DNA of 64,000 bases from Diprion similis (taxonomy: Eukaryota; Arthropoda; Insecta; Hymenoptera; Diprionidae), in NCBI RefSeq assembly GCF_021155765.1, contig NC_060112.1, forward strand, positions 15,190,001 to 15,254,000, given 5' to 3'. Positions 1 to 61,432 of this stretch are shown here, in pieces (within the stretch, counting starts at the first letter, position 1; the number at the start of each line of letters is the position of its first letter). The notes below the pieces were generated by a model. That model saw only the letters and a program-made list of their open reading frames with translations, was not told the origin of the DNA and ran no database searches. A program made the position numbers and the translations under genes.

Positions 1-3000
1 GATTAATCGCAGTCCCGATACGCTGCGAGCAACACCTGCAAAGTTACAGCCGAAAAACTGCAGATTTTCATCGTCATTTCTCTGCTGCTGGTCCTAGGCT
101 ATTTTTCATGTGTTTTCTGAGTTCCTGGGGGTCGAATTAGTCTAAAAAGCGTCATACGGATCGATTCCCAGACAAAAGATTTTTCGGCCAAAAAAAATCC
201 AAGGCTAACCCCTTTGCATTTTTGGCGAAAATTTCGACAACTTTGGAAAGTGCTGCAATTAATTTTTTAGGGTACTATTCCGACGTGATTTTGCGAGAGG
301 AATCGATTAATCGCAGTCCCGATACGCTGCGAGCAACACCTGCAAAGTTACAGCCGAAAAACTGCAGATTTTCATCGTCATTTCTCTGCTGCTGGTCCTA
401 GGCTATTTTTCATGTGTTTTCTGAGTTCCTGGGGGTCGAATTAGTCTAAAAAGCGTCATACGGATCGATTCCCAGACAAAAGATTTTTCGGCCAAAAAAA
501 ATCCAAGGTAACCCCTTTGCATTTTTGGCGAAAATTTCGACAACTTTGGAAAGTGCTGCAATTAATTCTTCAGGGTACTATTCCGACGTGATTTTGCGAG
601 AGGAATCGATTAATCGCAGTCCCGATACGCTGCGAGCAACACCTGCAAAGTTACAGCCGAAAAACTGCAGATTTTCATCGTCATTTCTCTGCTGCTGGTC
701 CTAGGCTATTTTTCATGTGTTTTCTGAGTTCCTGGGGGTCGAATTAGTCTAAGAAGCGTCATACGGATCGATTCCCAGACAAAAGATTTTTCGGCCAAAA
801 AAAATCCAAGGCTAACCCCTTTGCATTTTTGGCGAAAATTTCGACAACTTTGGAAAGTGCTGCAATTAATTCTTTAGGGTACTATTCCGACGTGATTTTG
901 CGAGAGGAATCGATTAATCGCAGTCCCGATACGCTGCGAGCAACACCTGCAAAGTTACAGCCGAAAAACTGCAGATTTTCATCGTCATTTCTCTGCTGCT
1001 GGTCCTAGGCTATTTTTCATGTGTTTTCTGAGTTCCTGGGGGTCGAATTAGTCTAAAAAGCGTCATACGGATCGATTCCCAGACAAAAGATTTTTCGGCC
1101 AAAAAAAATCCAAGGCTAACCCCTTTGCATTTTTGGCGAAAATTTCGACAACTTTGGAAAGTGCTGCAATTAATTCTTTAGGGTACTATTCCGACGTGAT
1201 TTTGCGAGAGGAATCGATTAATCGCAGTCCCGATACGCTGCGAGCAACACCTGCAAAGTTACAGCCGAAAAACTGCAGATTTTCATCGTCATTTCTCTGC
1301 TGCTGGTCCTAGGCTATTTTTCATGTGTTTTCTGAGTTCCTGGGGGTCGAATTAGTCTAAAAAGCGTCATACGGATCGATTCCCAGACAAAAGATTTTTC
1401 GGCCAAAAAAAATCCAAGGCTAACCCCTTTGCATTTTTGGCGAAAATTTCGACAACTTTGGAAAGTGCTGCAATTAATTTTTTAGGGTACTATTCCGACG
1501 TGATTTTGCGAGAGGAATCGATTAATCGCAGTCCCGATACGCTGCGAGCAACACCTGCAAAGTTACAGCCGAAAAACTGCAGATTTTCATCGTCATTTCT
1601 CTGCTGCTGGTCCTAGGCTATTTTTCATGTGTTTTCTGAGTTCCTGGGGGTCGAATTAGTCTAAAAAGCGTCATACGGATCGATTCCCAGACAAAAGATT
1701 TTTCGGCCAAAAAAAATCCAAGGCTAACCCCTTTGCATTTTTGGCGAAAATTTCGACGACTTCGAAAAGTGCTGCAATTAATTCTTTAGGGTACTATTCC
1801 GACGTGATTTTGCGAGAGGAATCGATTAATCGCAGTCCCGATACACTGCGAGCAACACCTGCAAAGTTACAGCCGAAAAACTGCAGATTTTCATCGTCAT
1901 TTCTCTGCTGCTGGTCCTAGGCTATTTTTCATGTGTTTTCTGAGTTCCTGGGGGTCGAATTAGTCCAAAAAGCGTCATACGGATCGATTCCCAGACAAAA
2001 GATTTTTCGGCCAAAAAAAATCCAAGGCTAACCCCTTTGCATTTTTGGCGAAAATTTCGACAACTTTGGAAAGTGCTGCAATTAATTCTTTAGGGTACTA
2101 TTCCGACGTGATTTTGCGAGAGGAATCGATTAATCGCAGTCCCGATACGCTGCGAGCAACACCTGCAAAGTTACAGCCGAAAAACTGCAGATTTTCATCG
2201 TCATTTCTCTGCTGCTGGTCCTAGGCTATTTTTCATGTGTTTTCTGAGTTCCTGGGGGTCGAATTAGTCTAAAAAGCGTCATACGGATCGATTCCCAGAC
2301 AAAAGATTTTTCGGCCAAAAAAAATCCAAGGCTAACCCCTTTGCATTTTTGGCGAAAATTTCGACAACTTTGGAAAGTGCTGCAATTAATTCTTTAGGGT
2401 ACTATTCCGACGTGATTTTGCGAGAGGAATCGATTAATCGCAGTCCCGATACGCTGCGAGCAACACCTGCAAAGTTACAGCCGAAAAACTGCAGATTTTC
2501 ATCGTCATTTCTCTGCTGCTGGTCCTAGGCTATTTTTCATGTGTTTTCTGAGTTCCTGGGGGTCGAATTAGTCTAAAAAGCGTCATACGGATCGATTCCC
2601 AGACAAAAGATTTTTCGGCCAAAAAAAATCCAAGGCTAACCCCTTTGCATTTTTGGCGAAAATTTCGACGACTTTGAAAAGTGCTGCAATTGTTTCTTTA
2701 GGGTACTATTCCGACGTGATTTTGCGAGAGGAATCGATTAATCGCAGTCCCGATACGCTGCGAGCAACACCTGCAAAGTTACAGCCGAAAAACTGCAGAT
2801 TTTCATCGTCATTTCTCTGCTGCTGGTCCTAGGCTATTTTTCATGTGTTTTCTGAGTTCCTGGGGGTCGAATTAGTCTGAAAAGCGTCATACGGATCGAT
2901 TCCCAGACAAAAGATTTTTCGGCCAAAAAAAATCCAAGGCTAACCCCTTTGCATTTTTGGCGAAAATTTCGACAACTTTGGAAAGTGCTGCAATTAATTC

Positions 3001-3855
3001 TTTAGGGTACTATTCCGACGTGATTTTGCGAGAGGAATCGATTAATCGCAGTCCCGATACGCTGCGAGCAACACCTGCAAAGTTACAGCCGAAAAACTGC
3101 AGATTTTCATCGTCATTTCTCTGCTGCTGGTCCTAGGCTATTTTTCATGTGTTTTCTGAGTTCCTGGGGGTCGAATTAGTCTAAAAAGCGTCATACGGAT
3201 CGATTCCCAGACAAAAGATTTTTCGGCCAAAAAAAATCCAAGGCTAACCCCTTTGCATTTTTGGCGAAAATTTCGACGACTTCGAAAAGTGCTGCAAATA
3301 ATTCTTTAGGGTACTATTCCGACGTGATTTTGCGAGAGGAATCGATTAATCGCAGTCCCGATACGCTGCGAGCAACACCTGCAAAGTTACAGCCGAAAAA
3401 CTGCAGATTTTCATCGTCATTTCTCTGCTGCTGGTCCTAGGCTATTTTTCATGTGTTTTCTGAGTTCCTGGGGGTCGAATTAGTCCAAAAAGCGTCATAC
3501 GGATCGATTCCCAGACAAAAGATTTTTCGGCCAAAAAAAATCCAAGGCTAACCCCTTTGCATTTTTGGCGAAAATTTCGACAACTTTGGAAAGTGCTGCA
3601 ATTAATTCTTTAGGGTACTATTCCGACGTGATTTTGCGAGAGGAATCGATTAATCGCAGTCCCGATACGCTGCGAGCAACACCTGCAAAGTTACAGCCGA
3701 AAAACTGCAGATTTTCATCGTCATTTCTCTGCTGCTGGTCCTAGGCTATTTTTCATGTGTTTTCTGAGTTCCTGGGGGTCGAATTAGTCTAAAAAGCGTC
3801 ATACGGATCGATTCCCAGACAAAAGATTTTTCGGCCAAAAAAAATCCAAGGCTAA
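1..3855. repeat. 304-bp satellite array, block 1 (about 12.7 copies)
   Basis: Tandem monomers of 304 bp. The landmark gattaatcgcagtcccgata recurs at 1, 305, 608, 912, 1216, 1520, 1824, 2128, 2432, 2736, 3040, 3344 and 3648; the single 303-bp step (305 to 608) is one lost c in 'ggctaacc'. Copies are nearly identical and differ at a few diagnostic sites: ttctttag/ttttttag, acaactttgg/acgacttcga, tagtct/tagtcc. The array enters from the left edge and is interrupted at 3855 by a retrotransposon. No gene is visible in it; the stop-free stretches inside monomers are short and are broken in most copies. Such high identity suggests recent homogenisation, as in pericentromeric or subtelomeric satellites, but the location cannot be read from the sequence. 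Confidence 0.98.
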
Positions 3856-3856
3856 T

Positions 3857-6643
3857 AAAGGCATAATAATTTTTACAGAAACATGGATCAACTCTAAACA
3901 AGATCTATGGAAATACAAAGACTACACAGCTTTTTGGGCCAACAGTAAGATATCTGATAAAGACGGAATTGTTGTACTGGTTCACAAAAATTTAGAAGCT
4001 TATGACGCACAACTGAACATCGAAGGAGCCAATGGAATCAAATTGATTTTGAAGACCACTCAAGAGACCATTGAAATTTACGCGATCTACAGATCCCCAT
4101 CCGGAAATCTGAAGAAATTTATCGAAAGCTTGGACCAGGAATTGGGAGAAGGCACAACAAAAACGGCAATCATGGCAGGGGATATAAACATAGATATCAA
4201 GCCCGGCAGTAATGCCATCGATGGAGAAGAATACCTCAACGTTCTCAGCATGCATGGATACGTAGCAGCTATTACAACACCGACGAGGGAAACAGATAAC
4301 ACAAGTACGTGCATTGATCATATATTTATAAAACAAAAAAATGTAGAAAACGTACGTGCAGCTGTACTAAAAACGACAATTACTGACCATTATACAACTA
4401 TACTACAAATAGGAAAAACAAGTAAGGATAGGACAAGGACAATACATGTGAACAAAGTCGACTACAACAAAGTAACAGAAATAATTGAAAAAGAAAAATG
4501 GGAAAATGTGCTGAATGAACAAGACCTAGAAAAAGCTACCAAAAACCTAATTACCACTCTACAGAAAGCGGTCGAGGAAGCTACCAAAAAAATAACAATA
4601 ACGAACAATAATAGAACGACAAAGCTGAAGCCGTGGGTAACAAATGGTCTCGTCAGAGCAATAAGACAAAGAAACAAGCTCGCCAAAAAAGCAAGAAGAG
4701 AGCCTTTCAATTCGGATCTACAAATAGAATACAAAATGTACCGCAAAACGCTAGTAAAGTTAATAGACAAAACAAAAAATGAATATTACAGGAAGCAAAT
4801 AACGGCAGCCGGAAACGATCAAAAACGAATATGGAAAGTAATTAGAGAAAACAAAATTCAAGAAAAAAAAAAGGAGGAAGCAAGCAAAATAAGGTTGAAA
4901 CTCGAAGGCCAACAAGAAATTGAAACAAATGAGGAACGAATAGCAAACACCTTCAATGACTACTTCCTCTCTGTTGGAAAGCATTTAACAAATGAAATAC
5001 CAACCCATCTGATTGGAAAGGACGAGAAAGTAAAGGGGGAAGCACAGAAATCGATATATCTATCACCTATAACGGAATCAGAAATAAGAAGACATATAAC
5101 GCAGATGAAGTCACAGACAGCACCGGGAGAAGATGGAATAAAGGCGAAATTACTAAAATCAACGATCGAATACGTTGTAAAACCACTAGAATGCATATTC
5201 AATCGAAGCATATCAATTGGAACCTTCCCAGAGCAATTGAAAAAAAGCATAGTAATACCAGTATATAAAGCCGGTGAAAAAACAGATGCAACAAACTACA
5301 GACCTATCTCGCTCATAAGCAGCATAAGTAAGATTCTAGAAAAATGCATAAAAAACAGGCTAATAGAGTTCTTTGAAAAAAACAACATCCTCTCAAACAC
5401 CCAGTACGGATTCAGAATGAATAAGAGTACACAGGATGCGATATACAAACTCACGAATCGTATTACGAGCAACCTCGATCAAGGAACCAAAACCATTGCC
5501 ACATACCTGGATCTATCAAAAGCCTTCGATACAGTACAACATCACATCTTGCTCCGAAAACTAGAGAAAATGGGCATCAGAGGAATAGCCAATAAATGGT
5601 TTGGAAGCTACCTCGGGAACAGACAACAAAAAACAAGGATCGGGGACAGAAATAGCAGAGCAGGCGTAATAACAACGGGCGTCCCACAAGGGTCTGTACT
5701 TGGAGCAATATTGTATATTGTGTACACCAACGATCTGTGCAAAATGAAAATAGAATCAGAAATGATAGCCTATGCAGATGACACGGTAATAATAACGACA
5801 GGAAATGACTGGAAGGAGGTTTATAGAAAAGCGAACACGGATATGGCAAAAATAAAGAGGTGGCTAGACAATCACAAACTAACCCTGAATGGGAACAAAA
5901 CTAAGTACATGCGGTATAAAATTAATAAAATCAAAGATCCTGAAGACAGTGAATTCTTAATTCTGAAAATACACACTTGCGGGAAATACGAACCAGGATG
6001 CGGCTGTGAAGAAATAGAAATGAAAGAATGCATTAAATACCTGGGTGTCACGATCGATGAAAGAATGAAGTGGACTGAACACATAAAACGAACAGCAGCC
6101 AGACTACGACAAACAATTCACACGCTGCTCAATATCAGATCAATTGTAACACAGGACACGATGAGGAAAATCTACTATGCTCTAGTACACTCTATTATTG
6201 AATATGGGATAATAGCATGGGGAAATGCATACCAGAAAAATTTGAGACCACTGGAAATAATACAAAAAATGATACTACGAATAGCCTTTTGGAAACCTCG
6301 GTATTACCCAAGTGATATGCTCTTTGCCATAACAAAAATACCGGACATACGCCAGGCTTACATGAAGAACGCACTAGTGCGTCTTAAACGAAATCCGGAA
6401 GAAATAGAACAAAGAAAGCTCACCCACGAACATGACACCAGAGCCAGGACACGAGGAAACCTCATACTTCCGAAAACTAAAACAACAATTGGGCACAGAC
6501 AGGAAAGAGTCATTATAAACAAGCTGTATAATGAAATTCCATTAGAAATAAAGCAAAAATGTATACAGGGTTTCAAAAAAAGTATTAGTACTTGGATTTT
6601 ACAGCAGGGAAGAATGTACAATGATAAACTGACTAACACCTAG
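3857..6643 (+). CDS. Non-LTR retrotransposon ORF2, endonuclease (partial) and reverse transcriptase
   Basis: Open, stop-free frame of 928 codons beginning right at the element's truncated 5' edge (no true start codon is present; the reading starts KGIIIFTETW). It nicks target DNA and copies the element RNA. Visible parts in order: endonuclease remnant with FTETW, GDINID, CIDHIF and the TDH catalytic motif (nucleotides 3872-4394); a linker rich in K and E; RT with YRPISLIS, the NKSTQDAIY region, YLDLSKAFDTV, GVPQGSVLG and the catalytic YADD at 5771-5782; then KYLGVTID and a C-terminal tail. A cysteine cluster (C, then CGC, then C) follows the RT core near 5979-6032. It ends at the TAG at 6641-6643. 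The RT core is intact, so the insertion is recent. Without its start it is unlikely to act on its own. Confidence 0.93.
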   Translation, partial: KGIIIFTETWINSKQDLWKYKDYTAFWANSKISDKDGIVVLVHKNLEAYDAQLNIEGANGIKLILKTTQETIEIYAIYRSPSGNLKKFIESLDQELGEGTTKTAIMAGDINIDIKPGSNAIDGEEYLNVLSMHGYVAAITTPTRETDNTSTCIDHIFIKQKNVENVRAAVLKTTITDHYTTILQIGKTSKDRTRTIHVNKVDYNKVTEIIEKEKWENVLNEQDLEKATKNLITTLQKAVEEATKKITITNNNRTTKLKPWVTNGLVRAIRQRNKLAKKARREPFNSDLQIEYKMYRKTLVKLIDKTKNEYYRKQITAAGNDQKRIWKVIRENKIQEKKKEEASKIRLKLEGQQEIETNEERIANTFNDYFLSVGKHLTNEIPTHLIGKDEKVKGEAQKSIYLSPITESEIRRHITQMKSQTAPGEDGIKAKLLKSTIEYVVKPLECIFNRSISIGTFPEQLKKSIVIPVYKAGEKTDATNYRPISLISSISKILEKCIKNRLIEFFEKNNILSNTQYGFRMNKSTQDAIYKLTNRITSNLDQGTKTIATYLDLSKAFDTVQHHILLRKLEKMGIRGIANKWFGSYLGNRQQKTRIGDRNSRAGVITTGVPQGSVLGAILYIVYTNDLCKMKIESEMIAYADDTVIITTGNDWKEVYRKANTDMAKIKRWLDNHKLTLNGNKTKYMRYKINKIKDPEDSEFLILKIHTCGKYEPGCGCEEIEMKECIKYLGVTIDERMKWTEHIKRTAARLRQTIHTLLNIRSIVTQDTMRKIYYALVHSIIEYGIIAWGNAYQKNLRPLEIIQKMILRIAFWKPRYYPSDMLFAITKIPDIRQAYMKNALVRLKRNPEEIEQRKLTHEHDTRARTRGNLILPKTKTTIGHRQERVIINKLYNEIPLEIKQKCIQGFKKSISTWILQQGRMYNDKLTNT

Positions 6644-7035
6644 AAAATAAGTGAATACCAAGACTCAATTAGGAATATAGGAGTTGTCTGAAGGTTTTGT
6701 CTGAATGTTTTCTTGTTACAAATGTAAGCAAATAAAAAAAAGTATCACCAACTTATTAGGTATAGATTAGGAAATAAGTACAACGTGTAGATTTAAATAA
6801 CAACTCGGAATGATTGATCTGCGTAATATAGTGAACTATCAGGTGCGGGTGAGAATATCTCAAATGCAAGCACACAATCACGCAAAAAAAAAAAAAAAAA
6901 AAAATTGTAATTTAGGAAATTAAGTGACAACTTGTCACTAAGTAGAAAAAAGCAACTCCAGCCACACAAGCATAATTAGATGCTCAGGCATGGAGAACTG
7001 AGAATTATATGTAAACACGAAAAATATGTTTGTCA

Positions 7036-7068
7036 ATAAATCTAAATCTAAATCTAATCTAAATCTAA
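7036..7068 (+). repeat. 3' tail of element 1, TAAATC-type short tandem repeat
   Basis: The element ends in about five units of TAAATC, one lacking an A, starting at an AATAAA-like string (7036) and running directly into the satellite at cccctttgc. The last unit supplies TAA, which is also the target sequence, so the exact edge is ambiguous by up to four bases (CTAA). Short tandem 3' tails instead of poly(A) are known from CR1, L2 and I-like elements. Confidence 0.85.
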
Positions 7069-10000
7069 CCCCTTTGCATTTTTGGCGAAAATTTCGACAA
7101 CTTTGGAAAGTGCTGCAATTAATTTTTTAGGGTACTATTCCGACGTGATTTTGCGAGAGGAATCGATTAATCGCAGTCCCGATACGCTGCGAGCAACACC
7201 TGCAAAGTTACAGCCGAAAAACTGCAGATTTTCATCGTCATTTCTCTGCTGCTGGTCCTAGGCTATTTTTCATGTGTTTTCTGAGTTCCTGGGGGTCGAA
7301 TTAGTCTAAAAAGCGTCATACGGATCGATTCCCAGACAAAAGATTTTTCGGCCAAAAAAAATCCAAGGCTAACCCCTTTGCATTTTTGGCGAAAATTTCG
7401 ACAACTTTGGAAAGTGCTGCAATTAATTCTTTAGGGTACTATTCCGACGTGATTTTGCGAGAGGAATCGATTAATCGCAGTCCCGATACGCTGCGAGCAA
7501 CACCTGCAAAGTTACAGCCGAAAAACTGCAGATTTTCATCGTCATTTCTCTGCTGCTGGTCCTAGGCTATTTTTCATGTGTTTTCTGAGTTCCTGGGGGT
7601 CGAATTAGTCTAAAAAGCGTCATAGGGATCGATTCCCAGACAAAAGATTTTTCGGCCAAAAAAAATCCAAGGCTAACCCCTTTGCATTTGTGGCGAAAAT
7701 TTCGACAACTTTGGAAAGTGCTGCAATTAATTTTTTAGGGTACTATTCCGACGTGATTTTGCGAGAGGAATCGATTAATCGCAGTCCCGATACGCTGCGA
7801 GCAACACCTGCAAAGTTACAGCCGAAAAACTGCAGATTTTCATCGTCATTTCTCTGCTGCTGGTCCTAGGCTATTTTTCATGTGTTTTCTGAGTTCCTGG
7901 GGGTCGAATTAGTCTAAGAAGCGTCATACGGATCGATTCCCAGACAAAAGATTTTTCGGCCAAAAAAAATCCAAGGCTAACCCCTTTGCATTTTTGGCGA
8001 AAATTTCGACAACTTTGGAAAGTGCTGCAATTAATTCTTTAGGGTACTATTCCGACGTGATTTTGCGAGAGGAATCGATTAATCGCAGTCCCGATACGCT
8101 GCGAGCAACACCTGCAAAGTTACAGCCGAAAAACTGCAGATTTTCATCGTCATTTCTCTGCTGCTGGTCCTAGGCTATTTTTCATGTGTTTTCTGAGTTC
8201 CTGGGGGTCGAATTAGTCTAAAAAGCGTCATACGGATCGATTCCCAGACAAAAGATTTTTCGGCCAAAAAAAATCCAAGGCTAACCCCTTTGCATTTTTG
8301 GCGAAAATTTCGACGACTTTAAAAAGTGCTGCAATTGTTTCTTTAGGGTACTATTCCGACGTGATTTTGCGAGAGGAATCGATTAATCGCAGTCCCGATA
8401 CGCTGCGAGCAACACCTGCAAAGTTACAGCCGAAAAACTGCAGATTTTCATCGTCATTTCTCTGCTGCTGGTCCTAGGCTATTTTTCATGTGTTTTCTGA
8501 GTTCCTGGGGGTCGAATTAGTCTAAAAAGCGTCATACGGATCGATTCCCAGACAAAAGATTTTTCGGCCAAAAAAAATCCAAGGCTAACCCCTTTGCATT
8601 TTTGGCGAAAATTTCGACAACTTTGGAAAGTGCTGCAATTAATTCTTTAGGGTACTATTCCGACGTGATTTTGCGAGAGGAATCGATTAATCGCAGTCCC
8701 GATACGCTGCGAGCAACACCTGCAAAGTTACAGCCGAAAAACTGCAGATTTTCATCGTCATTTCTCTGCTGCTGGTCCTAGGCTATTTTTCATGTGTTTT
8801 CTGAGTTCCTGGGGGTCGAATTAGTCTAAAAAGCGTCATACGGATCGATTCCCAGACAAAAGATTTTTCGGCCAAAAAAAATCCAAGGCTAACCCCTTTG
8901 CATTTTTGGCGAAAATTTCGACAACTTTGGAAAGTGCTGCAATTAATTCTTTAGGGTACTATTCCGACGTGATTTTGCGAGAGGAATCGATTAATCGCAG
9001 TCCCGATACGCTGCGAGCAACACCTGCAAAGTTACAGCCGAAAAACTGCAGATTTTCATCGTCATTTCTCTGCTGCTGGTCCTAGGCTATTTTTCATGTG
9101 TTTTCTGAGTTCCTGGGGGTCGAATTAGTCTAAAAAGCGTCATACGGATCGATTCCCAGACAAAAGATTTTTCGGCCAAAAAAAATCCAAGGCTAACCCC
9201 TTTGCATTTTTGGCGAAAATTTCGACAACTTTGGAAAGTGCTGCAATTAATTCTTTAGGGTACTATTCCGACGTGATTTTGCGAGAGGAATCGATTAATC
9301 GCAGTCCCGATACGCTGCGAGCAACACCTGCAAAGTTACAGCCGAAAAACTGCAGATTTTCATCGTCATTTCTCTGCTGCTGGTCCTAGGCTATTTTTCA
9401 TGTGTTTTCTGAGTTCCTGGGGGTCGAATTAGTCTAAAAAGCGTCATACGGATCGATTCCCAGACAAAAGATTTTTCGGCCAAAAAAAATCCAAGGCTAA
9501 CCCCTTTGCATTTTTGGCGAAAATTTCGACAACTTTGGAAAGTGCTGCAATTAATTCTTTAGGGTACTATTCCGACGTGATTTTGCGAGAGGAATCGATT
9601 AATCGCAGTCCCGATACGCTGCGAGCAACACCTGCAAAGTTACAGCCGAAAAACTGCAGATTTTCATCGTCATTTCTCTGCTGCTGGTCCTAGGCTATTT
9701 TTCATGTGTTTTCTGAGTTCCTGGGGGTCGAATTAGTCTAAAAAGCGTCATACGGATCGATTTCCAGACAAAAGATTTTTCGGCCAAAAAAAATCCAAGG
9801 CTAACCCCTTTGCATTTTTGGCGAAAATTTCGACAACTTTGGAAAGTGCTGCAATTAATTTTTTAGGGTACTATTCCGACGTGATTTTGCGAGAGGAATC
9901 GATTAATCGCAGTCCCGATACGCTGCGAGCAACACCTGCAAAGTTACAGCCGAAAAACTGCAGATTTTCATCGTCATTTCTCTGCTGCTGGTCCTAGGCT

Positions 10001-13000
10001 ATTTTTCATGTGTTTTCTGAGTTCCTGGGGGTCGAATTAGTCTAAAAAGCGTCATACGGATCGATTCCCAGACAAAAGATTTTTCGGCCAAAAAAAATCC
10101 AAGGCTAACCCCTTTGCATTTTTGGCGAAAATTTCGACAACTTTGGAAAGTGCTGCAATTAATTCTTTAGGGTACTATTCCGACGTGATTTTGCGAGAGG
10201 AATCGATTAATCGCAGTCCCGATACGCTGCGAGCAACACCTGCAAAGTTACAGCCGAAAAACTGCAGATTTTCATCGTCATTTCTCTGCTGCTGGTCCTA
10301 GGCTATTTTTCATGTGTTTTCTGAGTTCCTGGGGGTCGAATTAGTCTAAAAAGCGTCATACGGATCGATTTCCAGACAAAAGATTTTTCGGCCAAAAAAA
10401 ATCCAAGGCTAACCCCTTTGCATTTTTGGCGAAAATTTCGACAACTTTGGAAAGTGCTGCAATTAATTCTTTAGGGTACTATTCCGACGTGATTTTGCGA
10501 GAGGAATCGATTAATCGCAGTCCCGATACGCTGCGAGCAACACCTGCAAAGTTACAGCCGAAAAACTGCAGATTTTCATCGTCATTTCTCTGCTGCTGGT
10601 CCGAGGCTATTTTTCATGTGTTTTCTGAGTTCCTGGGGGTCGAATTAGTCTAAAAAGCGTCATACGGATCGATTCCCAGACAAAAGATTTTTCGGCCAAA
10701 AAAAATCCAAGGCTAACCCCTTTGCATTTTTGGCGAAAATTTCGACGACTTTGAAAAGTGCTGCAATTGTTTCTTTAGGGTACTATTCCGACGTGATTTT
10801 GCGAGAGGAATCGATTAATCGCAGTCCCGATACGCTGCGAGCAACACCTGCAAAGTTACAGCCGAAAAACTGCAGATTTTCATCGTCATTTCTCTGCTGC
10901 TGGTCCTAGGCTATTTTTCATGTGTTTTCTGAGTTCCTGGGGGTCGAATTAGTCTAAAAAGCGTCATACGGATCGATTCCCAGACAAAAGATTTTTCGGC
11001 CAAAAAAAATCCAAGGCTAACCCCTTTGCATTTTTGGCGAAAATTTCGACGACTTTAAAAAGTGCTGCAATTGTTTCTTTAGGGTACTATTCCGACGTGA
11101 TTTTGCGAGAGGAATCGATTAATCGCAGTCCCGATACGCTGCGAGCAACACCTGCAAAGTTACAGCCGAAAAACTGCAGATTTTCATCGTCATTTCTCTG
11201 CTGCTGGTCCTAGGCTATTTTTCATGTGTTTTCTGAGTTCCTGGGGGTCGAATTAGTCTAAAAAGCGTCATACGGATCGATTCCCAGACAAAAGATTTTT
11301 CGGCCAAAAAAAATCCAAGGCTAACCCCTTTGCATTTTTGGCGAAAATTTCGACAACTTTGGAAAGTGCTGCAATTAATTCTTTAGGGTACTATTCCGAC
11401 GTGATTTTGCGAGAGGAATCGATTAATCGCAGTCCCGATACGCTGCGAGCAACACCTGCAAAGTTACAGCCGAAAAACTGCAGATTTTCATCGTCATTTC
11501 TCTGCTGCTGGTCCTAGGCTATTTTTCATGTGTTTTCTGAGTTCCTGGGGGTCGAATTAGTCTAAAAAGCGTCATACGGATCGATTCCCAGACAAAAGAT
11601 TTTTCGGCCAAAAAAAATCCAAGGCTAACCCCTTTGCATTTTTGGCGAAAATTTCGACAACTTTGGAAAGTGCTGCAATTAATTCTTTAGGGTACTATTC
11701 CGACGTGATTTTGCGAGAGGAATCGATTAATCGCAGTCCCGATACGCTGCGAGCAACACCTGCAAAGTTACAGCCGAAAAACTGCAGATTTTCATCGTCA
11801 TTTCTCTGCTGCTGGTCCTAGGCTATTTTTCATGTGTTTTCTGAGTTCCTGGGGGTCGAATTAGTCTAAAAAGCGTCATACGGATCGATTCCCAGACAAA
11901 AGATTTTTCGGCCAAAAAAAATCCAAGGCTAACCCCTTTGCATTTTTGGCGAAAATTTCGAAAACTTTGGAAAGTGCTGCAATTAATTCTTTAGGGTACT
12001 ATTCCGACGTGATTTTGCGAGAGGAATCGATTAATCGCAGTCCCGATACGCTGCGAGCAACACCTGCAAAGTTACAGCCGAAAAACTGCAGATTTTAGTC
12101 GTCATTTCTCTGCTGCTGGTCCTAGGCTATTTTTCATGTGTTTTCTGAGTTCCTGGGGGTCGAATTAGTCTAAAAAGCGTCATACGGATCGATTCCCAGA
12201 CAAAAGATTTTTCGGCCAAAAAAAATCCAAGGCTAACCCCTTTGCATTTTTGGCGAAAATTTCGACAACTTTGGAAAGTGCTGCAATTAATTCTTTAGGG
12301 TACTATTCCGACGTGATTTTGCGAGAGGAATCGATTAATCGCAGTCCCGATACGCTGCGAGCAACACCTGCAAAGTTACAGCCGAAAAACTGCAGATTTT
12401 CATCGTCATTTCTCTGCTGCTGGTCCTAGGCTATTTTTCATGTGTTTTCTGAGTTCCTGGGGGTCGAATTAGTCTAAAAAGCGTCATACGGATCGATTCC
12501 CAGACAAAAGATTTTTCGGCCAAAAAAAATCCAAGGCTAACCCCTTTGCATTTTTGGCGAAAATTTCGACGACTTTAAAAAGTGCTGCAATTGTTTCTTT
12601 AGGGTACTATTCCGACGTGATTTTGCGAGAGGAATCGATTAATCGCAGTCCCGATACGCTGCGAGCAACACCTGCAAAGTTACAGCCGAAAAACTGCAGA
12701 TTTTCATCGTCATTTCTCTGCTGCTGGTCCTAGGCTATTTTTCATGTGTTTTCTGAGTTCCTGGGGGTCGAATTAGTCTAAAAAGCGTCATACGGATCGA
12801 TTCCCAGACAAAAGATTTTTCGGCCAAAAAAAATCCAAGGCTAACCCCTTTGCATTTTTGGCGAAAATTTCGACAACTTTGGAAAGTGCTGCAATTAATT
12901 CTTTAGGGTACTATTCCGACGTGATTTTGCGAGAGGAATCGATTAATCGCAGTCCCGATACGCTGCGAGCAACACCTGCAAAGTTACAGCCGAAAAACTG

Positions 13001-15279
13001 CAGATTTTCATCGTCATTTCTCTGCTGCTGGTCCTAGGCTATTTTTCATGTGTTTTCTGAGTTCCTGGGGGTCGAATTAGTCTAAAAAGCGTCATACGGA
13101 TCGATTTCCAGACAAAAGATTTTTCGGCCAAAAAAAATCCAAGGCTAACCCCTTTGCATTTTTGGCGAAAATTTCGACAACTTTGGAAAGTGCTGCAATT
13201 AATTTTTTAGGGTACTATTCCGACGTGATTTTGCGAGAGGAATCGATTAATCGCAGTCCCGATACGCTGCGAGCAACACCTGCAAAGTTACAGCCGAAAA
13301 ACTGCAGATTTTCATCGTCATTTCTCTGCTGCTGGTCCTAGGCTATTTTTCATGTGTTTTCTGAGTTCCTGGGGGTCGAATTAGTCTAAAAAGCGTCATA
13401 CGGATCGATTTCCAGACAAAAGATTTTTCGGCCAAAAAAAATCCAAGGCTAACCCCTTTGCATTTTTGGCGAAAATTTCGACAACTTTGGAAAGTGCTGC
13501 AATTAATTTTTTAGGGTACTATTCCGACGTGATTTTGCGAGAGGAATCGATTAATCGCAGTCCCGATACGCTGCGAGCAACACCTGCAAAGTTACAGCCG
13601 AAAAACTGCAGATTTTCATCGTCATTTCTCTGCTGCTGGTCCTAGGCTATTTTTCATGTGTTTTCTGAGTTCCTGGGGGTCGAATTAGTCTAAAAAGCGT
13701 CATACGGATCGATTTCCAGACAAAAGATTTTTCGGCCAAAAAAAATCCAAGGCTAACCCCTTTGCATTTTTGGCGAAAATTTCGACAACTTTGGAAAGTG
13801 CTGCAATTAATTTTTTAGGGTACTATTCCGACGTGATTTTGCGAGAGGAATCGATTAATCGCAGTCCCGATACGCTGCGAGCAACACCTGCAAAGTTACA
13901 GCCGAAAAACTGCAGATTTTCATCGTCATTTCTCTGCTGCTGGTCCTAGGCTATTTTTCATGTGTTTTCTGAGTTCCTGGGGGTCGAATTAGTCTAAAAA
14001 GCGTCATACGGATCGATTTCCAGACAAAAGATTTTTCGGCCAAAAAAAATCCAAGGCTAACCCCTTTGCATTTTTGGCGAAAATTTCGACAACTTTGGAA
14101 AGTGCTGCAATTAATTTTTTAGGGTACTATTCCGACGTGATTTTGCGAGAGGAATCGATTAATCGCAGTCCCGATACGCTGCGAGCAACACCTGCAAAGT
14201 TACAGCCGAAAAACTGCAGATTTTCATCGTCATTTCTCTGCTGCTGGTCCTAGGCTATTTTTCATGTGTTTTCTGAGTTCCTGGGGGTCGAATTAGTCTA
14301 AAAAGCGTCATACGGATCGATTTCCAGACAAAAGATTTTTCGGCCAAAAAAAATCCAAGGCTAACCCCTTTGCATTTTTGGCGAAAATTTCGACAACTTT
14401 GGAAAGTGCTGCAATTAATTTTTTAGGGTACTATTCCGACGTGATTTTGCGAGAGGAATCGATTAATCGCAGTCCCGATACGCTGCGAGCAACACCTGCA
14501 AAGTTACAGCCGAAAAACTGCAGATTTTCATCGTCATTTCTCTGCTGCTGGTCCTAGGCTATTTTTCATGTGTTTTCCGAGTTCCTGGGGGTCGAATTAG
14601 TCTAAAAAGCGTCATACGGATCGATTCCCAGACAAAAGATTTTTCGGCCAAAAAAAATCCAAGGCTAACCCCTTTGCATTTTTGGCGAAAATTTCGACAA
14701 CTTTGGAAAGTGCTGCAATTAATTCTTTAGGGTACTATTCCGACGTGATTTTGCGAGAGGAATCGATTAATCGCAGTCCCGATACGCTGCGAGCAACACC
14801 TGCAAAGTTACAGCCGAAAAACTGCAGATTTTCATCGTCATTTCTCTGCTGCTGGTCCTAGGCTATTTTTCATGTGTTTTCTGAGTTCCTGGGGGTCGAA
14901 TTAGTCTAAAAAGCGTCATACGGATCGATTCCCAGACAAAAGATTTTTCGGCCAAAAAAAATCCAAGGCTAACCCCTTTGCATTTTTGGCGAAAATTTCG
15001 ACAACTTTGGAAAGTGCTGCAATTAATTCTTTAGGGTACTATTCCGACGTGATTTTGCGAGAGGAATCGATTAATCGCAGTCCCGATACGCTGCGAGCAA
15101 CACCTGCAAAGTTACAGCCGAAAAACTGCAGATTTTCATCGTCATTTCTCTGCTGCTGGTCCTAGGCTATTTTTCATGTGTTTTCTGAGTTCCTGGGGGT
15201 CGAATTAGTCTAAAAAGCGTCATACGGATCGATTTCCAGACAAAAGATTTTTCGGCCAAAAAAAATCCAAGGCTAACCC
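7069..15279. repeat. 304-bp satellite array, block 2 (27 copies)
   Basis: The same monomer continues after element 1. The landmark gattaatcg falls at 7165 and then every 304 bp without exception to 15069. Copies starting at 12941, 13245, 13549, 13853 and 14157 all carry the pair 'gatttcca' plus 'ttttttag', a run of one subtype. Copies starting at 8077, 10509, 10813 and 12333 carry acgacttt(a/g)aaaag followed by ttgtttc. The block is ended at 15279 by element 2 after 'ggctaaccc'. One copy (10509) has ctaggc changed to cgaggc, which removes a stop and creates a 75-codon open frame by chance. Confidence 0.98.
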
Positions 15280-15281
15280 TA

Positions 15282-17717
15282 GATCGGATCAGATCCAAGG
15301 AAAAAGAGAACTACTTGAACATAATGTACAACCACGAATTTATATCCTGCATAAATGTTCCAACTCGGGTTACAGACAACAACAGCACATGTATCGACCA
15401 CATCTTCGTTAAACAAAAACATGCCAAAAACGTCAAAGCAAGTGTCATCCAAACTAACATAACAGATCACTTCTCGACGATGATACAAATGAAGACCGTC
15501 AAAGCAGTGCAACCGGATATAATTGAAATAAAAAAAATCGACTACAACAAAACCAGGGAATCTCTGGGGAGAGAAGAATGGCAAGAAGTGACAACACAAA
15601 CTGATGTCAATAAAGCTACGGAAGCCCTGATTAAAATAATAAAATGGACAATCAATGAAGCAACAAATACCAAGACCATAATAACAAACACAAAATGGAA
15701 AAAAATAAAACCATGGATCACACAAGGCATAATCACATCTATTAGAAAGAGGGACGAGATGGCGAGAAAGCTTCGGAGAAACAAAAACGACACCGTACAA
15801 AAAGAAGAATACAGGATATACAGGAACAGTCTCACAAGACTTATAAAAGCAACAAAAAACTCTTATTACAGTAAGCAAATAGAAAAAGCAGGCAATGACC
15901 AGAAGAGGATCTGGCAAGTAATCAACGAAAATCGATATGAAAAAGTGGATAGAAACAAGGAACGTGTATATACAATAAAAATAGGAGAAACGAAAATAAC
16001 CGACCCTAAACAAATTGCCAACAGCTTTAACGAGTTTTACATCAGTATGGGTAAGAATCTCGCCAAAAAAATCCCAAAAACCAAGATGAGAAACACAAAA
16101 AACGAAATAAACATAAAGGACTCAATATTCCTGACACCAATATACGAAGCAGAAATAAAAAAACACATAATGGAGCAGAAAAACAGTGCATCCACGGGAC
16201 ATGACAACATTAAAGCCGAATTTCTCAAACACAATGTAGAATACCTTACAAAACCCCTAGAATACATATTCAATCTTAGTATAGAAAAAGGAATATTTCC
16301 GATACACTTTAAGACAAACACCATAACGACTATATATAAGACAGGGGATAAAATGGACATGGCCAACTATAGGCCCATAGCTATCACCAGTGCGATAGGA
16401 AAGCTCCTTGAGAAATGTATGAAAACTAGGCTGATAAAACACATGGACAAGCACAACATCATTTCAGTAAATCAATATGGATTCAGACAAAATTGCAGCA
16501 CACAGGATGCGATCTACTCACTAACAAAGTACATATACGGGAAGATAGACAAAAAGAAGAAAATAGTAGGAGTGTATCTAGACCTAGCGAAAGCTTTCGA
16601 CACGGTGCCACATCAAAGACTGTTGGAGAAAATGGAAGCAATAGGGATCAGGGGCATCTCTCTGCGATGGTTCGGAAGCTACCTGACAGAAAGAACGCAA
16701 CAAGTAAAACTAGGAACATCATACAGTGAACGAAAAATTACGGAATGCGGAATACCCCAAGGGACTGTCCTATCGGCAATCTTGTTTAACGTATATGTTA
16801 ATGATATATGCAACATGAAAATGTCATCGAAAATATTAGCATACGCCGACGACACTGTCATATTGACTGCAAAGGATACGTGGAAAGAAGCCTTTGAAAC
16901 AGCAAACCAAGACCTGAATGCAGTATATGAATATCTTAACGAACACCTACTATCCCTGAATGAGAAAAAAACCAAATATATGACATACGCATCCAGCAAA
17001 ATAGGAGAAGAAACAAGAGGACCGGAATTTTCAATTAAACTACATAGATGCGATACAACAAACAAGAAATGTACGTATGAAGAAATTGAAAAGACAGAAG
17101 AAATGAAGTACCTAGGAATAATCATTGACCAAAAACTAACATGGAAGACACATATACTTCAAACATCGGCAAGAATCCGAAAACTGATACACACCTTCAT
17201 CAATTTACAAAATATGGTAGACAAAACAACAATGAAAAGAGTATACTATAGTCTCGTGAACTCCGTACTAGAATACGGTATAATAGGCTGGGGTGGAACA
17301 TACAGCAAACATCTGAAACCACTGGAAATAACTCAGAAGCTAATCCTAAGAATAGCGTACAAGAAGGATAGAAAATACTCTACCGAGAAATTATATGAAG
17401 AAACGGGACTACTGGACATTAGACAAACTTACATGAAGGCTGCAGCAATAAAGATTCATAAATCGAACTTAACGGACGAAGAATACCAGATCGTACACGC
17501 GCATGATACAAGGGCAAGAGTCAACAAAGAGGTAACAAACCTGAAAACATACACAACGAAAGGACAACACCAAGCTGACTACATAGGCCGAAAAATATAT
17601 AACGAACTCGATAACGAAATGAGGAAACAACCAACACTCAGATTCAAAAAAAACATGAAACAATGGATTTTCAGCAGAGGAAGAGAATACTTCAACAAAA
17701 TTACAAGCCAGGAATGA
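15282..17717 (+). CDS. Non-LTR retrotransposon ORF2, endonuclease remnant and reverse transcriptase
   Basis: Stop-free frame of 812 codons from the truncated 5' edge (begins DRIRSKEKENY; no genuine start, the first in-frame ATG is at 15324) to the TGA at 17715-17717. Role as for element 1: target nicking and reverse transcription. Visible parts: the end of the endonuclease (FISCINVPTR, TCIDHIF, TDHF), RT motifs YRPIAITSAIGK, YLDLAKAFDTV, GIPQGTVLS and catalytic YADD at 16842-16853, then KYLGIIID and a tail that aligns with element 1 (HLKPLEITQKLILRIAY against NLRPLEIIQKMILRIAF). Only part of the post-RT cysteine cluster of element 1 is kept (two cysteines here). No frameshift or stop is seen, so it is recent, but it cannot be autonomous without its 5' half. 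Confidence 0.93.
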   Translation, partial: DRIRSKEKENYLNIMYNHEFISCINVPTRVTDNNSTCIDHIFVKQKHAKNVKASVIQTNITDHFSTMIQMKTVKAVQPDIIEIKKIDYNKTRESLGREEWQEVTTQTDVNKATEALIKIIKWTINEATNTKTIITNTKWKKIKPWITQGIITSIRKRDEMARKLRRNKNDTVQKEEYRIYRNSLTRLIKATKNSYYSKQIEKAGNDQKRIWQVINENRYEKVDRNKERVYTIKIGETKITDPKQIANSFNEFYISMGKNLAKKIPKTKMRNTKNEINIKDSIFLTPIYEAEIKKHIMEQKNSASTGHDNIKAEFLKHNVEYLTKPLEYIFNLSIEKGIFPIHFKTNTITTIYKTGDKMDMANYRPIAITSAIGKLLEKCMKTRLIKHMDKHNIISVNQYGFRQNCSTQDAIYSLTKYIYGKIDKKKKIVGVYLDLAKAFDTVPHQRLLEKMEAIGIRGISLRWFGSYLTERTQQVKLGTSYSERKITECGIPQGTVLSAILFNVYVNDICNMKMSSKILAYADDTVILTAKDTWKEAFETANQDLNAVYEYLNEHLLSLNEKKTKYMTYASSKIGEETRGPEFSIKLHRCDTTNKKCTYEEIEKTEEMKYLGIIIDQKLTWKTHILQTSARIRKLIHTFINLQNMVDKTTMKRVYYSLVNSVLEYGIIGWGGTYSKHLKPLEITQKLILRIAYKKDRKYSTEKLYEETGLLDIRQTYMKAAAIKIHKSNLTDEEYQIVHAHDTRARVNKEVTNLKTYTTKGQHQADYIGRKIYNELDNEMRKQPTLRFKKNMKQWIFSRGREYFNKITSQE

Positions 17718-17995
17718 AACAGATAAGACCTACAAATCAGAACACAGGACGGACAACACAAACAAAATAAGGAAAATAAGTAAGCCGAACCCTTGACACC
17801 CTACGCACAAGTTTCCGAACTTATGTGGGGAAGGGCGACGCACTCTACATGGAGGTACACATCGTAGAATATAAGTTAATTTTCACGCAGACAGAAATGA
17901 AAAAAAAAAAAAAAAAACATTATATAAAATTACAAGTATAACTATGTAGCGTATTTTTTGAAAAATGTATTGTGTTCACCGAAATGGGAGATATC

Positions 17996-17997
<2 letters not shown>

Positions 17998-18026
<29 letters not shown>
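17998..18026 (+). repeat. 3' tail of element 2, CTAAA short tandem repeat
   Basis: Five CTAAA units follow an AATAAA-like string at 17998-18003 and end ...aaactaa before ccccttt of the satellite. The unit differs from element 1 (CTAAA against CTAAAT), but both contain CTAA, the sequence at the insertion point. Confidence 0.87.
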
Positions 18027-19165
18027 CCCCTTTGCATTTTTGGCGAAAATTTCGACAACTTTGGAAAGTGCTGCAATTAATTCTTTAGGGTACTATTCCG
18101 ACGTGATTTTGCGAGAGGAATCGATTAATCGCAGTCCCGATACGCTGCGAGCAACACCTGCAAAGTTACAGCCGAAAAACTGCAGATTTTCATCGTCATT
18201 TCTCTGCTGCTGGTCCTAGGCTATTTTTCATGTGTTTTCTGAGTTCCTGGGGGTCGAATTAGTCTAAAAAGCGTCATACGGATCGATTCCCAGACAAAAG
18301 ATTTTTCGGCCAAAAAAAATCCAAGGCTAACCCCTTTGCATTTTTGGCGAAAATTTCGACGACTTTGAAAAGTGCTGCAATTGTTTCTTTAGGGTACTAT
18401 TCCGACGTGATTTTGCGAGAGGAATCGATTAATCGCAGTCCCGATACGCTGCGAGCAACACCTGCAAAGTTACAGCCGAAAAACTGCAGATTTTCATCGT
18501 CATTTCTCTGCTGCTGGTCCTAGGCTATTTTTCATGTGTTTTCTGAGTTCCTGGGGGTCGAATTAGTCTAAAAAGCGTCATACGGATCGATTCCCAGACA
18601 AAAGATTTTTCGGCCAAAAAAAATCCAAGGCTAACCCCTTTGCATTTTTGGCGAAAATTTCGACGACTTTGAAAAGTGCTGCAATTGTTTCTTTAGGGTA
18701 CTATTCCGACGTGATTTTGCGAGAGGAATCGATTAATCGCAGTCCCGATACGCTGCGAGCAACACCTGCAAAGTTACAGCCGAAAAACTGCAGATTTTCA
18801 TCGTCATTTCTCTGCTGCTGGTCCTAGGCTATTTTTCATGTGTTTTCTGAGTTCCTGGGGGTCGAATTAGTCTAAAAAGCGTCATACGGATCGATTCCCA
18901 GACAAAAGATTTTTCGGCCAAAAAAAATCCAAGGCTAACCCCTTTGCATTTTTGGCGAAAATTTCGACGACTTTGAAAAGTGCTGCAATTGTTTCTTTAG
19001 GGTACTATTCCGACGTGATTTTGCGAGAGGAATCGATTAATCGCAGTCCCGATACGCTGCGAGCAACACCTGCAAAGTTACAGCCGAAAAACTGCAGATT
19101 TTCATCGTCATTTCTCTGCTGCTGGTCCTAGGCTATTTTTCATGTGTTTTCTGAGTTCCTGGGGG
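18027..19165. repeat. 304-bp satellite array, block 3 (about 3.7 copies)
   Basis: The array resumes at ccccttt and has landmarks at 18123, 18427, 18731 and 19035. The three monomers 18123, 18427 and 18731 all have the acgactttgaaaag plus ttgtttc variant, another run of one subtype. Canonical sequence stops at about 19165, within 'ctgggggt'. Confidence 0.97.
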
Positions 19166-19400
19166 TGCAATTACTCCAGCTATGGTCGTACAAATCGATT
19201 CCGGAACAAAAAATTTTCGACTCCGAAAATGACGAAAAAAGTAAGGCTAACCCCTATGGATTTTTGGCGAAAATTTCGACGATTCCGAGAAATGCTGCAA
19301 TCGATTCTCTGAGGTACTATTCCGACGTAATTTTCCGAGAGGAATCGATTGAGCGCAGGCCGAATACGCTGCGAGCAACGGATGAAGAGCGACGGCTGAA
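19166..19400. repeat. Diverged terminal satellite monomer
   Basis: From 19166 the sequence still aligns with the monomer but with many changes: atcgattccggaacaaaa for atcgattcccagacaaaa, ggctaacccctatggattt for ggctaacccctttgcattt, and similar changes through cgctgcgagcaac at 19370. It then loses similarity near 19390-19400. This is the edge of the array, where unequal exchange homogenises less and old variants survive. An open frame runs through it but gives no recognisable protein. Confidence 0.88.
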
Positions 19401-59617: not shown

Positions 59618-61432
59618 TTATTTGTAAACACGATGTACGACCAGTTCAATAAAGAAAGTAAAAGTTGACAAACAGCAACCACAGATAAAAATTAACATCG
59701 TTCGTTGCAGGCCGTTCCGAGATAAAACCGACTGGTCAGTTTCATCGGTATCTTTCGACCGCCCTGAGGTTTTTGTTTGTAGAATGTCTTGACTCTTGAT
59801 CAACTTGGTTGTAATTCCAGCTTCGTACATTCGTGATAGAAGTTTGTTGATGGATGGCAAATATGGCGAGCCGCGCAGAACGGTGAACGCTCTGTACTGC
59901 TTGAACATGTATTCGTCAGTGATAGCGAACGTGGGTTTGCCACCCTGCATTGTTTTTTCTATAAACATTTGGGCGGCGACTTCCTCCATAAAGCAAGTTA
60001 TGTTCTTTTTTGCCGGCTCGAGCATAAGTGTCAAGCAGTTATCCTGAATCACGCTTCGCCTTACTATTCGTTTAATTCTATCGTCATCTCCAGCACCGGC
60101 AGCGATCAGGAACGCGTATTCGTTCGCTTCAACCACAGGTATACGACCGCTTTTATCCAGTTCAGCAAAGGTGCGAATCCTGGTGGGTTTCAATCCGATC
60201 GTCAGCTCGTCGATGAGGCGGCTCTGAAGCATGATGGAAACGAATACAGCCAAAATCATCCAAAATGTCAAAAGCACTCGTGGTGGCCATCGGGTTGGGT
60301 AGCGTGACGAACCTCCACCAACGATAATTAAGTAGAGCTGAAGCAGCGTAGGCATTTCGGATTGGAAACGAAGTACTAGTGAGGCTAGATAGACAATTCC
60401 GACGAGCGATCCGCCGATCGCCAGCGATGAGAGTGAACCATGGAATTGATTAATTAATAAATCGTATTCTATCGGTACCAAGGCAAATATACGGCCAACT
60501 GTATGGAATACACTATACTCTGCGTAAGTACTCAGATCCTTGTAAAGTACGATGAACATAGAGTTTGCTAGAATGTCAGTTCTTCTTTTCATAAAATCCA
60601 AGGCTAGTCCATCGACGTTGCTGGTGTTGAACGGACCCCACCGTTCGTTAAAACGCGGAATCACTTGCTGAGTAGCATTCAATTTCGATGTAAGTAATTT
60701 CATTACGTCAAAGTCATATCCTTTCATCACTATTGGATTTCCGGTCGCGTTATCGCGAAGAACAACAGATCTAGGCGGACGACTGACTGCGGATTGACGC
60801 AATGGAAATCCATGCATGTCTTCAACACGGTCGACGAAAGTCCTTGCGAAGCTGGGGTCTCGTATCTTTTCGCAAAGGCCAGTGAATGGATTGCACGCAT
60901 GGAGTATCAAGCTGCATTTTTCTCTGACATCGAAAGTTATGATTGTAATTCTGAAAATTAGATTGTCCCAAAATTGTTGATTGATAAATTTCACATCTCT
61001 GCAAGCGACCGTTGTTCCTATCAAGTATATCAGGTGGACACGTTGAAACCACCAACACTGTTTTTGCAATTTTTTCAGTGTGGTTTTGGTTTCATTCATA
61101 GTTGGACATTTTTCTGTTGTACGAATGTACAGCACAAACATTTTCACTGACAGTCTCTTTGCAGGGGGTATAGCACAATCATCCAGACGATCGAATGTCG
61201 TTGATTCAATCGGACCCTTTGAAGCCAGGTCGTGATACAATTCAAAGTTGCTCTCTCTGTCCATAGAATCGTGCAAAATGATCGTTGTAATCTTTGGTTC
61301 TAAGGTTTTCCAAATCCGTGTGATATTTTCTGACAGGCATTTTTTATTATCTGGTGACAGTGAGATCCTTTTGCAATTTACAAGATATATTCCGTTAGTA
61401 ATGACACCGAGCAGCAACAGCAATTTAAACAT
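59618..61432 (-). CDS. Divergent ionotropic receptor (IR family), intronless
   Basis: A ligand-gated cation channel subunit related to ionotropic glutamate receptors, used for smell or taste in insects. A single exon of 604 residues if started at 61432 (MFKLLLLLGVITNGIYLVNC, a good signal peptide); an in-frame Met 16 codons upstream is less likely because it precedes a charged stretch. The ligand-binding S1 lobe includes KGYDFDVMKLLTSKLN (about 237-252). Membrane segments follow: M1 about 335-354 (SSLAIGGSLVGIVYLASLVL), a pore region, M2 about 386-404 (VLLTFWMILAVFVSIMLQS), and M3 about 579-594 (MLIFICGCCLSTFTFF). The S2 lobe lies between M2 and M3. Canonical glutamate-binding Arg, Thr and Asp/Glu are not evident, as in most divergent IRs. 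Glycosylation motifs NIT, NAT and NTS are present. Intronless structure is typical of the divergent, often gustatory, IRs. Confidence 0.9.
   Translation of the reverse strand: MFKLLLLLGVITNGIYLVNCKRISLSPDNKKCLSENITRIWKTLEPKITTIILHDSMDRESNFELYHDLASKGPIESTTFDRLDDCAIPPAKRLSVKMFVLYIRTTEKCPTMNETKTTLKKLQKQCWWFQRVHLIYLIGTTVACRDVKFINQQFWDNLIFRITIITFDVREKCSLILHACNPFTGLCEKIRDPSFARTFVDRVEDMHGFPLRQSAVSRPPRSVVLRDNATGNPIVMKGYDFDVMKLLTSKLNATQQVIPRFNERWGPFNTSNVDGLALDFMKRRTDILANSMFIVLYKDLSTYAEYSVFHTVGRIFALVPIEYDLLINQFHGSLSSLAIGGSLVGIVYLASLVLRFQSEMPTLLQLYLIIVGGGSSRYPTRWPPRVLLTFWMILAVFVSIMLQSRLIDELTIGLKPTRIRTFAELDKSGRIPVVEANEYAFLIAAGAGDDDRIKRIVRRSVIQDNCLTLMLEPAKKNITCFMEEVAAQMFIEKTMQGGKPTFAITDEYMFKQYRAFTVLRGSPYLPSINKLLSRMYEAGITTKLIKSQDILQTKTSGRSKDTDETDQSVLSRNGLQRTMLIFICGCCLSTFTFFIELVVHRVYK

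Follow-up and report, generated by a model that had tools for sequence, protein, structure and literature searches.

A satellite-preferring LINE lineage is already known from a plant, the L1-CS elements of Cuscuta europaea, which target the satellite CUS-TR24 and of which 91% are associated with it; as described in the available text, their target is similar to TTTTAA, the general site of L1 elements, and their 5' and 3' positions are shifted by 13-16 bp (PMC8091179). R1, TRAS and SART combine an AP-type endonuclease with precise targeting of tandem repeats (rDNA, telomere) and possible annealing of the RNA 3' end with the target (available parts of PMC7265360 and PMC4640811), and Keno and Utopia are distinct families that share exactly one base of the U2 snRNA gene, a target acquired in parallel (PMC4640811). 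In Anopheles, according to the text available, distinct families occupy identical rDNA positions, the targets again being RNA genes. Within the accessible portions of PMC4640811 and PMC5035012, site-specific families fall mostly into three groups (early-branching lineages, Tx1 and R1) and the targets given are rRNA, tRNA and snRNA genes, spliced leaders, transposons, microsatellites and telomeres. A satellite specialist of the kind described below is absent from the target and clade lists in the available text of PMC4640811, where YURE is mentioned as occasionally entering a U2-derived satellite. A search of the open literature, with most subscription journals and all preprints outside its scope, found no published account of the sawfly elements analyzed here.

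The window, i.e., the whole 64-kb stretch of DNA analyzed, comes from Diprion similis, the introduced pine sawfly, and is part of contig C8 of the assembly. It contains a satellite whose period according to TRF is 304 bp, the monomer length given in an earlier sequence-only reading, and two LINE copies in + orientation, E1 and E2, break up the array. The features are as follows.

1..3855, + strand: 304-bp satellite array left of E1 (TRF, 12.7 copies, 98% matches)
3852..3855, + strand: left copy of the E1 target duplication, CTAA (from the sequence; the right CTAA could be tail instead)
~3856..7064, + strand: E1, 5'-truncated LINE (open frame 3854-6640)
5279..6055, + strand: E1 reverse transcriptase (RVT_1; residues 476-734, frame from 3854)
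7065..7072, + strand: satellite target CTAACCCC resumes at the E1 3' end (from the sequence)
7065..15279, + strand: 304-bp satellite array between E1 and E2 (TRF, 27.0 copies, 99% matches)
15273..15279, + strand: left copy of the E2 target duplication, CTAACCC (from the sequence)
~15280..18022, + strand: E2, 5'-truncated LINE (ORF 15315-17717, 800 aa)
16350..17126, + strand: E2 reverse transcriptase (RVT_1; residues 358-616, frame from 15279)
18023..18029, + strand: right copy of the E2 duplication, CTAACCC (from the sequence)
18023..18030, + strand: satellite target CTAACCCC resumes at the E2 3' end (from the sequence)
18023..19379, + strand: satellite array right of E2, edge decaying (TRF row of 4.4 copies)

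The last monomer left of E1 ends with AAGGCTAA at the insertion site. The left target end reads GGCTAA (to 3855) for E1 and GGCTAACCC (to 15279) for E2, and after the tandem tail units of the two elements the satellite continues with CTAACCCCTTTGC at 7065 and 18023, respectively. Both junctions are as the sequence-only reading had them: cccctttgc starts at 7069 and 18027, each time after CTAA, the next landmark gattaatcgc lies 96 bases downstream (counted by eye), and the two elements have the same orientation. E1 comprises the C-terminal part of an AP-type endonuclease, the reverse transcriptase, a 3' UTR and TAAATC-like tail units, and its frame gave Pfam matches to PF00078 (2.6e-40) and PF03372 (2.5e-7) and contains the motifs TETW, GDINID, STCIDH, TDHY and YADD. 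E2 comprises the last part of the endonuclease, the reverse transcriptase, a 3' UTR and TAAAC tail units, with a match to PF00078 (8.7e-40) and the motifs STCIDH, TDHF and YADD. Rfam at the gathering threshold gave no match within the 64-kb window. An ORF of 620 aa at 59618-61480 (- strand) of the window is 86% identical to an uncharacterized protein of Neodiprion pinetum and may be an ionotropic receptor.

The whole genome was searched with the 3' UTRs of both elements, yielding 32 matches for E1 and 31 for E2, and 3' flanks were read for 29 and 30 of them, respectively, the four skipped rows being fragments of 30-100 bases. Flanks were found at GG^CTAACCCC and on the same strand in 25 of the 29 E1 copies and 23 of the 30 E2 copies, a total of 48 of 59 that includes copy L079 with the target variant CTTACCCC. 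Most copies of both families are thus at the base to which the sequence-only reading had pointed; the contrary outcome considered there, most copies lying in unrelated DNA, did not occur, and its case proved to be understated. A random insertion would meet site and strand with p = 8.0e-5, corresponding to 0.005 expected among 59 vs 48 observed, and a chance coincidence of two insertions is ruled out by this census. The 11 off-site flanks belong to the E1 copies L078, L080 and L084, which lie outside the satellite, to L087, which lies in the satellite with a decayed edge, and to the E2 copies L049, L057, L062, L063 and L066-L068, all outside the satellite and the last three with one common flank. 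BLAST detected no satellite in the ten non-satellite loci, and among the copies read there was no clean satellite joint at another base or in the opposite orientation. Among the most-alike rows, all 20 read E1 rows with at least 96% identity and 9 of the 10 read E2 rows with at least 95% identity are at the site; the copies outside the satellite are mostly older. A relaxed junction pattern, blind to joints in which one upstream position is G, gave 108 matches; the 100 listed consist of E1 and E2 tails, monomer variants, the 4-bp duplication of one array and the insert of L117 (see below), and no further unrelated family at the same site was seen by eye among them. The junction pattern GGCTAA followed by non-C was too unspecific for use.

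A loose endonuclease preference for TAA-like sites, with the satellite acting merely as a large gene-free sink in which insertions survive, would be in keeping with the 42,924 boxes present at up to three mismatches and with the TAA-like overlap that some off-target joints also have. However, a monomer offers about 608 combinations of base and strand, of which all 48 satellite insertions with a clean junction use a single one, nearly all the young copies occupy the site, and a comparison LINE of the same genome (29.8% identical to E1) had four different flanks in its four read copies, none of them satellite, so that we consider such a sink very improbable. Telomere-targeting elements straying into a telomere-like box are ruled out, as none of the 59 flanks, read by eye, was telomeric.

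After duplicates were collapsed, 22 E1 events and 20 E2 events remained at the site, so that the site copies represent about 42 separate insertions; for E2, grouping by flank and tail gave 19, which became 20 since the copies of the pair L040/L050 differ at the 5' end. The insertions are regarded as separate because their 5' truncation points, flanking monomers and contigs differ. On the mapping reference, E1 copies start at positions 1 (full length), 1062, 2528, 2534, 2687, 3040 (two copies, one of them placed separately), 3148, 3774, 4387 and others, and the 100-base 3' flanks of site insertions comprise 20 different sequences for E1 and 18 for E2. Thirty left junctions at the site (27 scored by script; L059, L088 and L132 by eye) retain the target from GGCT to GGCTAACCC and then pass into element or filler. 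The left junction of L048 matches to GGCTAACCCC, the last (fourth) C of which is also the element's own base, and in L061 and L134 the 5' junction lies elsewhere in the monomer.

That each family landed only once or twice and was then spread by array amplification or exchange, with the junction base fixed, seems hardly credible to us. The satellite is homogenized and some copies are clearly duplicates (five groups, L014/L015, L024/L025/L026, L051/L052, L053/L054 and L059/L060), but 5' truncations, left junction lengths, fillers, tails and flanking monomers differ on many contigs, and differing 5' ends with an identical 3' base are hard to obtain from one event. Spread by array amplification alone is ruled out by the distinct 5' truncations despite the five duplicate groups, in agreement with the earlier argument that E1 and E2 are not one insertion copied by amplification, and census and independence together support the satellite-targeting lineage that had been proposed from the window.

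The target box was found with up to three mismatches at 42,924 sites when both strands of the 269,008,206-base assembly (60 contigs) were searched, which would roughly correspond to 5% of the assembly if each box stands for one monomer. Full monomers in the fetched loci are 82 to 99% identical to the window monomer (5th-95th percentile). Among 57 distinct diverged monomers, from loci that were not picked by the box but all lie near insertions and so keep a residual bias, AAGGCTAACCCCTT was the top-conserved 14-mer (0.990 vs a mean of 0.846). When each locus contributes a single monomer (n=17), the box shares the top rank with one other stretch, and among monomers at least 97% identical it ranks 18 of 291 and is not outstanding. 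Few parts of the monomer are conserved as well as the stretch that holds the insertion target. At the array end (19167-19379 of the window) the monomers are strongly diverged and the box still reads AAGGCTAACCCC. The telomere repeat, read at two of six contig ends, is (TTAGG)n, and CTAACC is common to it and the satellite box, which in this way resembles the telomeric CCTAA of D. similis (compare the targets of TRAS and SART). In the region of C1:2056396, monomer L117 is lengthened by 10 bases, CTAACCTAAC, precisely at the target base; the insert is telomere-like and looks as though a nick had been repaired with telomere repeat or slippage had occurred. At C13:1391144-1399065, CTAA is duplicated (4 bp) at the target base of amplified monomers (L028-L034), resembling a target duplication that lacks its element. 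In Diprion pini, satellite transcripts from both strands have been reported (available text of PMC2220036), and by analogy, as a speculation, such two-strand transcription would supply a source of readthrough RNA in D. similis.

A full-length E1 of about 4.5 kb is present on contig C5 (1808495-1813006). Its ORF1 codes for a PHD finger (PF00628, 1.4e-6), Baculo_FP domains and weak coiled-coil matches; ORF1 of E2 has Baculo_FP domains and an N-terminal finger similar by pattern to that of E1, and both ORF1 proteins have a C4HC3-like start (scored by pattern). ORF2 of both elements encodes an AP-type endonuclease and a reverse transcriptase. Eleven E1 or E2 ORF2 frames of 914-1038 aa have no stop, which makes recent activity plausible. 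Around the ORF1 start, the 5' ends of five E1 copies (L093-L097, L093 repeating the query copy L091) read CTAACC-AAGATGG (L093, L094), CTAACC-AAGGTGG (L095), CTAACC-ACGATGG (L096) and, in the diverged L097, TTAACC-AAGATAG. L096 lies outside the satellite, where its flanks suggest a TAAGG duplication, and because it keeps CTAACC there, E1 seems to carry this motif itself. E2 starts with AGAAAAGATGG in L113-L116, preceded by filler in the three satellite copies. The leaders before ORF1 are only about 7-9 bases long in full-length E1 (L091) and E2 (L113-L116), and the start codon context in these copies, AAGATGGC, is similar to the TISU/YY1 element, a resemblance only; TISU is an initiation element found in mRNAs whose leaders are very short (PMC2518114, available text). 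At ~21797339-21801848 of contig C4, ORF1 of an E1 copy is entered in public databases as uncharacterized protein LOC124405931; the E1 ORF1 protein is 100% identical to it over 89% of the length, and LOC124405931 is a transposon protein within the gene set.

The finger in ORF1 bears on whether chromatin or a DNA-bound host protein, rather than the element's own endonuclease, directs the insertions, a protein on the satellite box recruiting the PHD-bearing ORF1 protein and tail pairing setting the cut. We know of no protein that binds this box. Both the location of the target, among the most strongly conserved parts of the monomer, and the PHD-type finger on both ORF1 proteins would fit such recruitment, and Metcalfe and Casane have suggested that the PHD finger may help targeting (PMC4120745, available text); base-level precision, however, is more usual for an endonuclease, and we judge recruitment by a host protein unlikely.

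The relationship between the elements was examined with a tree of 59 rows, mostly unnamed database proteins, obtained by a short search with no bootstrap and with one E3 row only 24% filled. E1, an E1-like copy, E2 and E3 form one clade (SH-aLRT 100), in which E3 adjoins E1 (SH-aLRT 96) with the topology (E2,(E1,E3)). E3 is a third, decayed and older family, for which the site base was found in one of five flanks (L147, in an old monomer) and the other four are elsewhere. ORF2 identity among the three families is 45-52% over aligned parts and 45% between E1 and E2, so that the earlier description of E1 and E2 as two different families stands, with the addition that they are related and belong, with E3, to one clade. 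A shared ancestry of targeting in E1 and E2 is more likely than two separate origins, given the single clade with SH-aLRT 100. From the E3 copy at the same base and the grouping in the tree, the targeting habit probably predates the split of E1, E2 and E3 and was later lost, or decayed, in E3.

As for the wider affinity, a PHD finger in ORF1 is a feature of the CR1 and L2 lineages of the Jockey superfamily, which like E1 and E2 have an AP-type endonuclease and a reverse transcriptase in ORF2, and not of the Jockey lineage (available text of PMC4120745). The PHD-type ORF1 is what suggests a CR1/L2 kinship of E1 and E2, and the CR1/L2-like label of the sequence-only reading holds as far as the type of ORF1 goes. 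To our knowledge, CR1/L2 lineages are not noted for strict site choice. No CCHC pattern was found in ORF1 of E1 or E2, so that the RRM plus CCHC knuckles of the Jockey lineage proper are not the arrangement here. A CCHC knuckle after the reverse transcriptase in ORF2 characterizes the R1 clade (R1, TRAS, SART), and no such pattern was detected in ORF2 of E1 or E2. Pfam reported no RNase H domain in ORF2 of either element, and an NCBIfam search gave nothing informative. In a PDB search the reverse transcriptase resembled LINE-1 and R2 and the endonuclease weakly LINE-1 or TRAS1, similarities without clade information.

With L1-CS, as described in the available text of PMC8091179, the sawfly elements share a LINE lineage with heterogeneous members, one abundant satellite and common insertion sites in the monomer. 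L1-CS differs in being a plant L1 lineage with two preferred adjacent regions vs the one base found here, and the sawfly elements, which belong to an insect, have a PHD-type ORF1, duplicate no more than about 7 bp and carry a tail repeat matching the target; they are a stricter variant of satellite preference. They are like R1, TRAS and SART in their AP-type endonuclease and precise choice within a tandem repeat, and unlike them in lacking insertions into (TTAGG)n among the 59 flanks read, in having short tandem-unit tails vs poly(A), and in a PHD-type ORF1 without CCHC. As in Keno and Utopia, distinct families share exactly one target base, but the target of those two is an RNA gene acquired in parallel and E1 and E2 are sister lineages.

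Very probably, E1, E2 and the older E3 form one site-specific LINE lineage that inserts by target-primed reverse transcription into the box AAGGCTAACCCCTTTG of the 304/312-bp satellite. In this process the bottom strand, once nicked, serves as primer for synthesis along the RNA tail. The AP-type endonuclease of the element would nick the bottom strand at, or up to four bases from, GG^CTAACCCC, the freed primer ending in ...GGGGTTAG would pair with a CTAA of the RNA tail, whose repeat units are CTAAAT or CTAAA, and the other strand would be cut a few bases downstream, leaving duplications of about CTA to CTAACCC. An endonuclease nick with pairing of tail and primer is favored because the tail units contain CTAA, the first four target bases, in E1, in E2 and in two of five E3 copies (L146, L147). 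In L013 and L053 the tail register has slipped and the CTAACCCC joint is still exact, which fits tail pairing. Because CTAA is common to tail and target, the position of the nick is ambiguous by four bases, and the target duplication may measure only 0-3 bp. What is observed is a single base and strand hit by many independent insertions, together with intact reading frames and catalytic motifs; judging from the sequences, the endonuclease would supply the choice of sequence and tail pairing would fix the register.

Several other LINEs of the same genome with AATC-like end units adjoin (TC)n, a second overlap of tail and target. In five of five copies read at this end (L103-L107; C13:11599100-11600200 and C2:148540-236700), four of which cluster at C2:132-236 kb, the 3' end joins a (TC)n microsatellite, and these elements possibly target (TC)n. 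The ORF2 products of L123-L126 from the same (TC)n LINEs are 26-28% identical to E1 (four aligned), and in the 59-row tree they do not form one clade. Kibi, a (TC)n-targeting element, offers a comparison.

More tentatively, and with rather less confidence than even chances would give, the site-specific lineage may be an old one of CR1/L2 type that became an obligate tenant of the satellite before E1, E2 and E3 split. It might aim at a conserved, possibly protein-binding box and have the target sequence at both of its ends, as CTAACC where E1 begins and as CTAA in the tail units; the target would then be reproduced by the RNA start, by tail pairing and by the duplication alike.

Targeting of the satellite apparently allows the sawfly LINEs to persist safely away from genes. 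A specialist for one satellite base with a PHD-type ORF1 would extend the known lists of targets and clades, would provide a natural endonuclease directed at a satellite, and would offer a test of co-evolution between tail repeat and target. With several copies retaining an open ORF2, autonomous elements can find a long-term home in satellite arrays.
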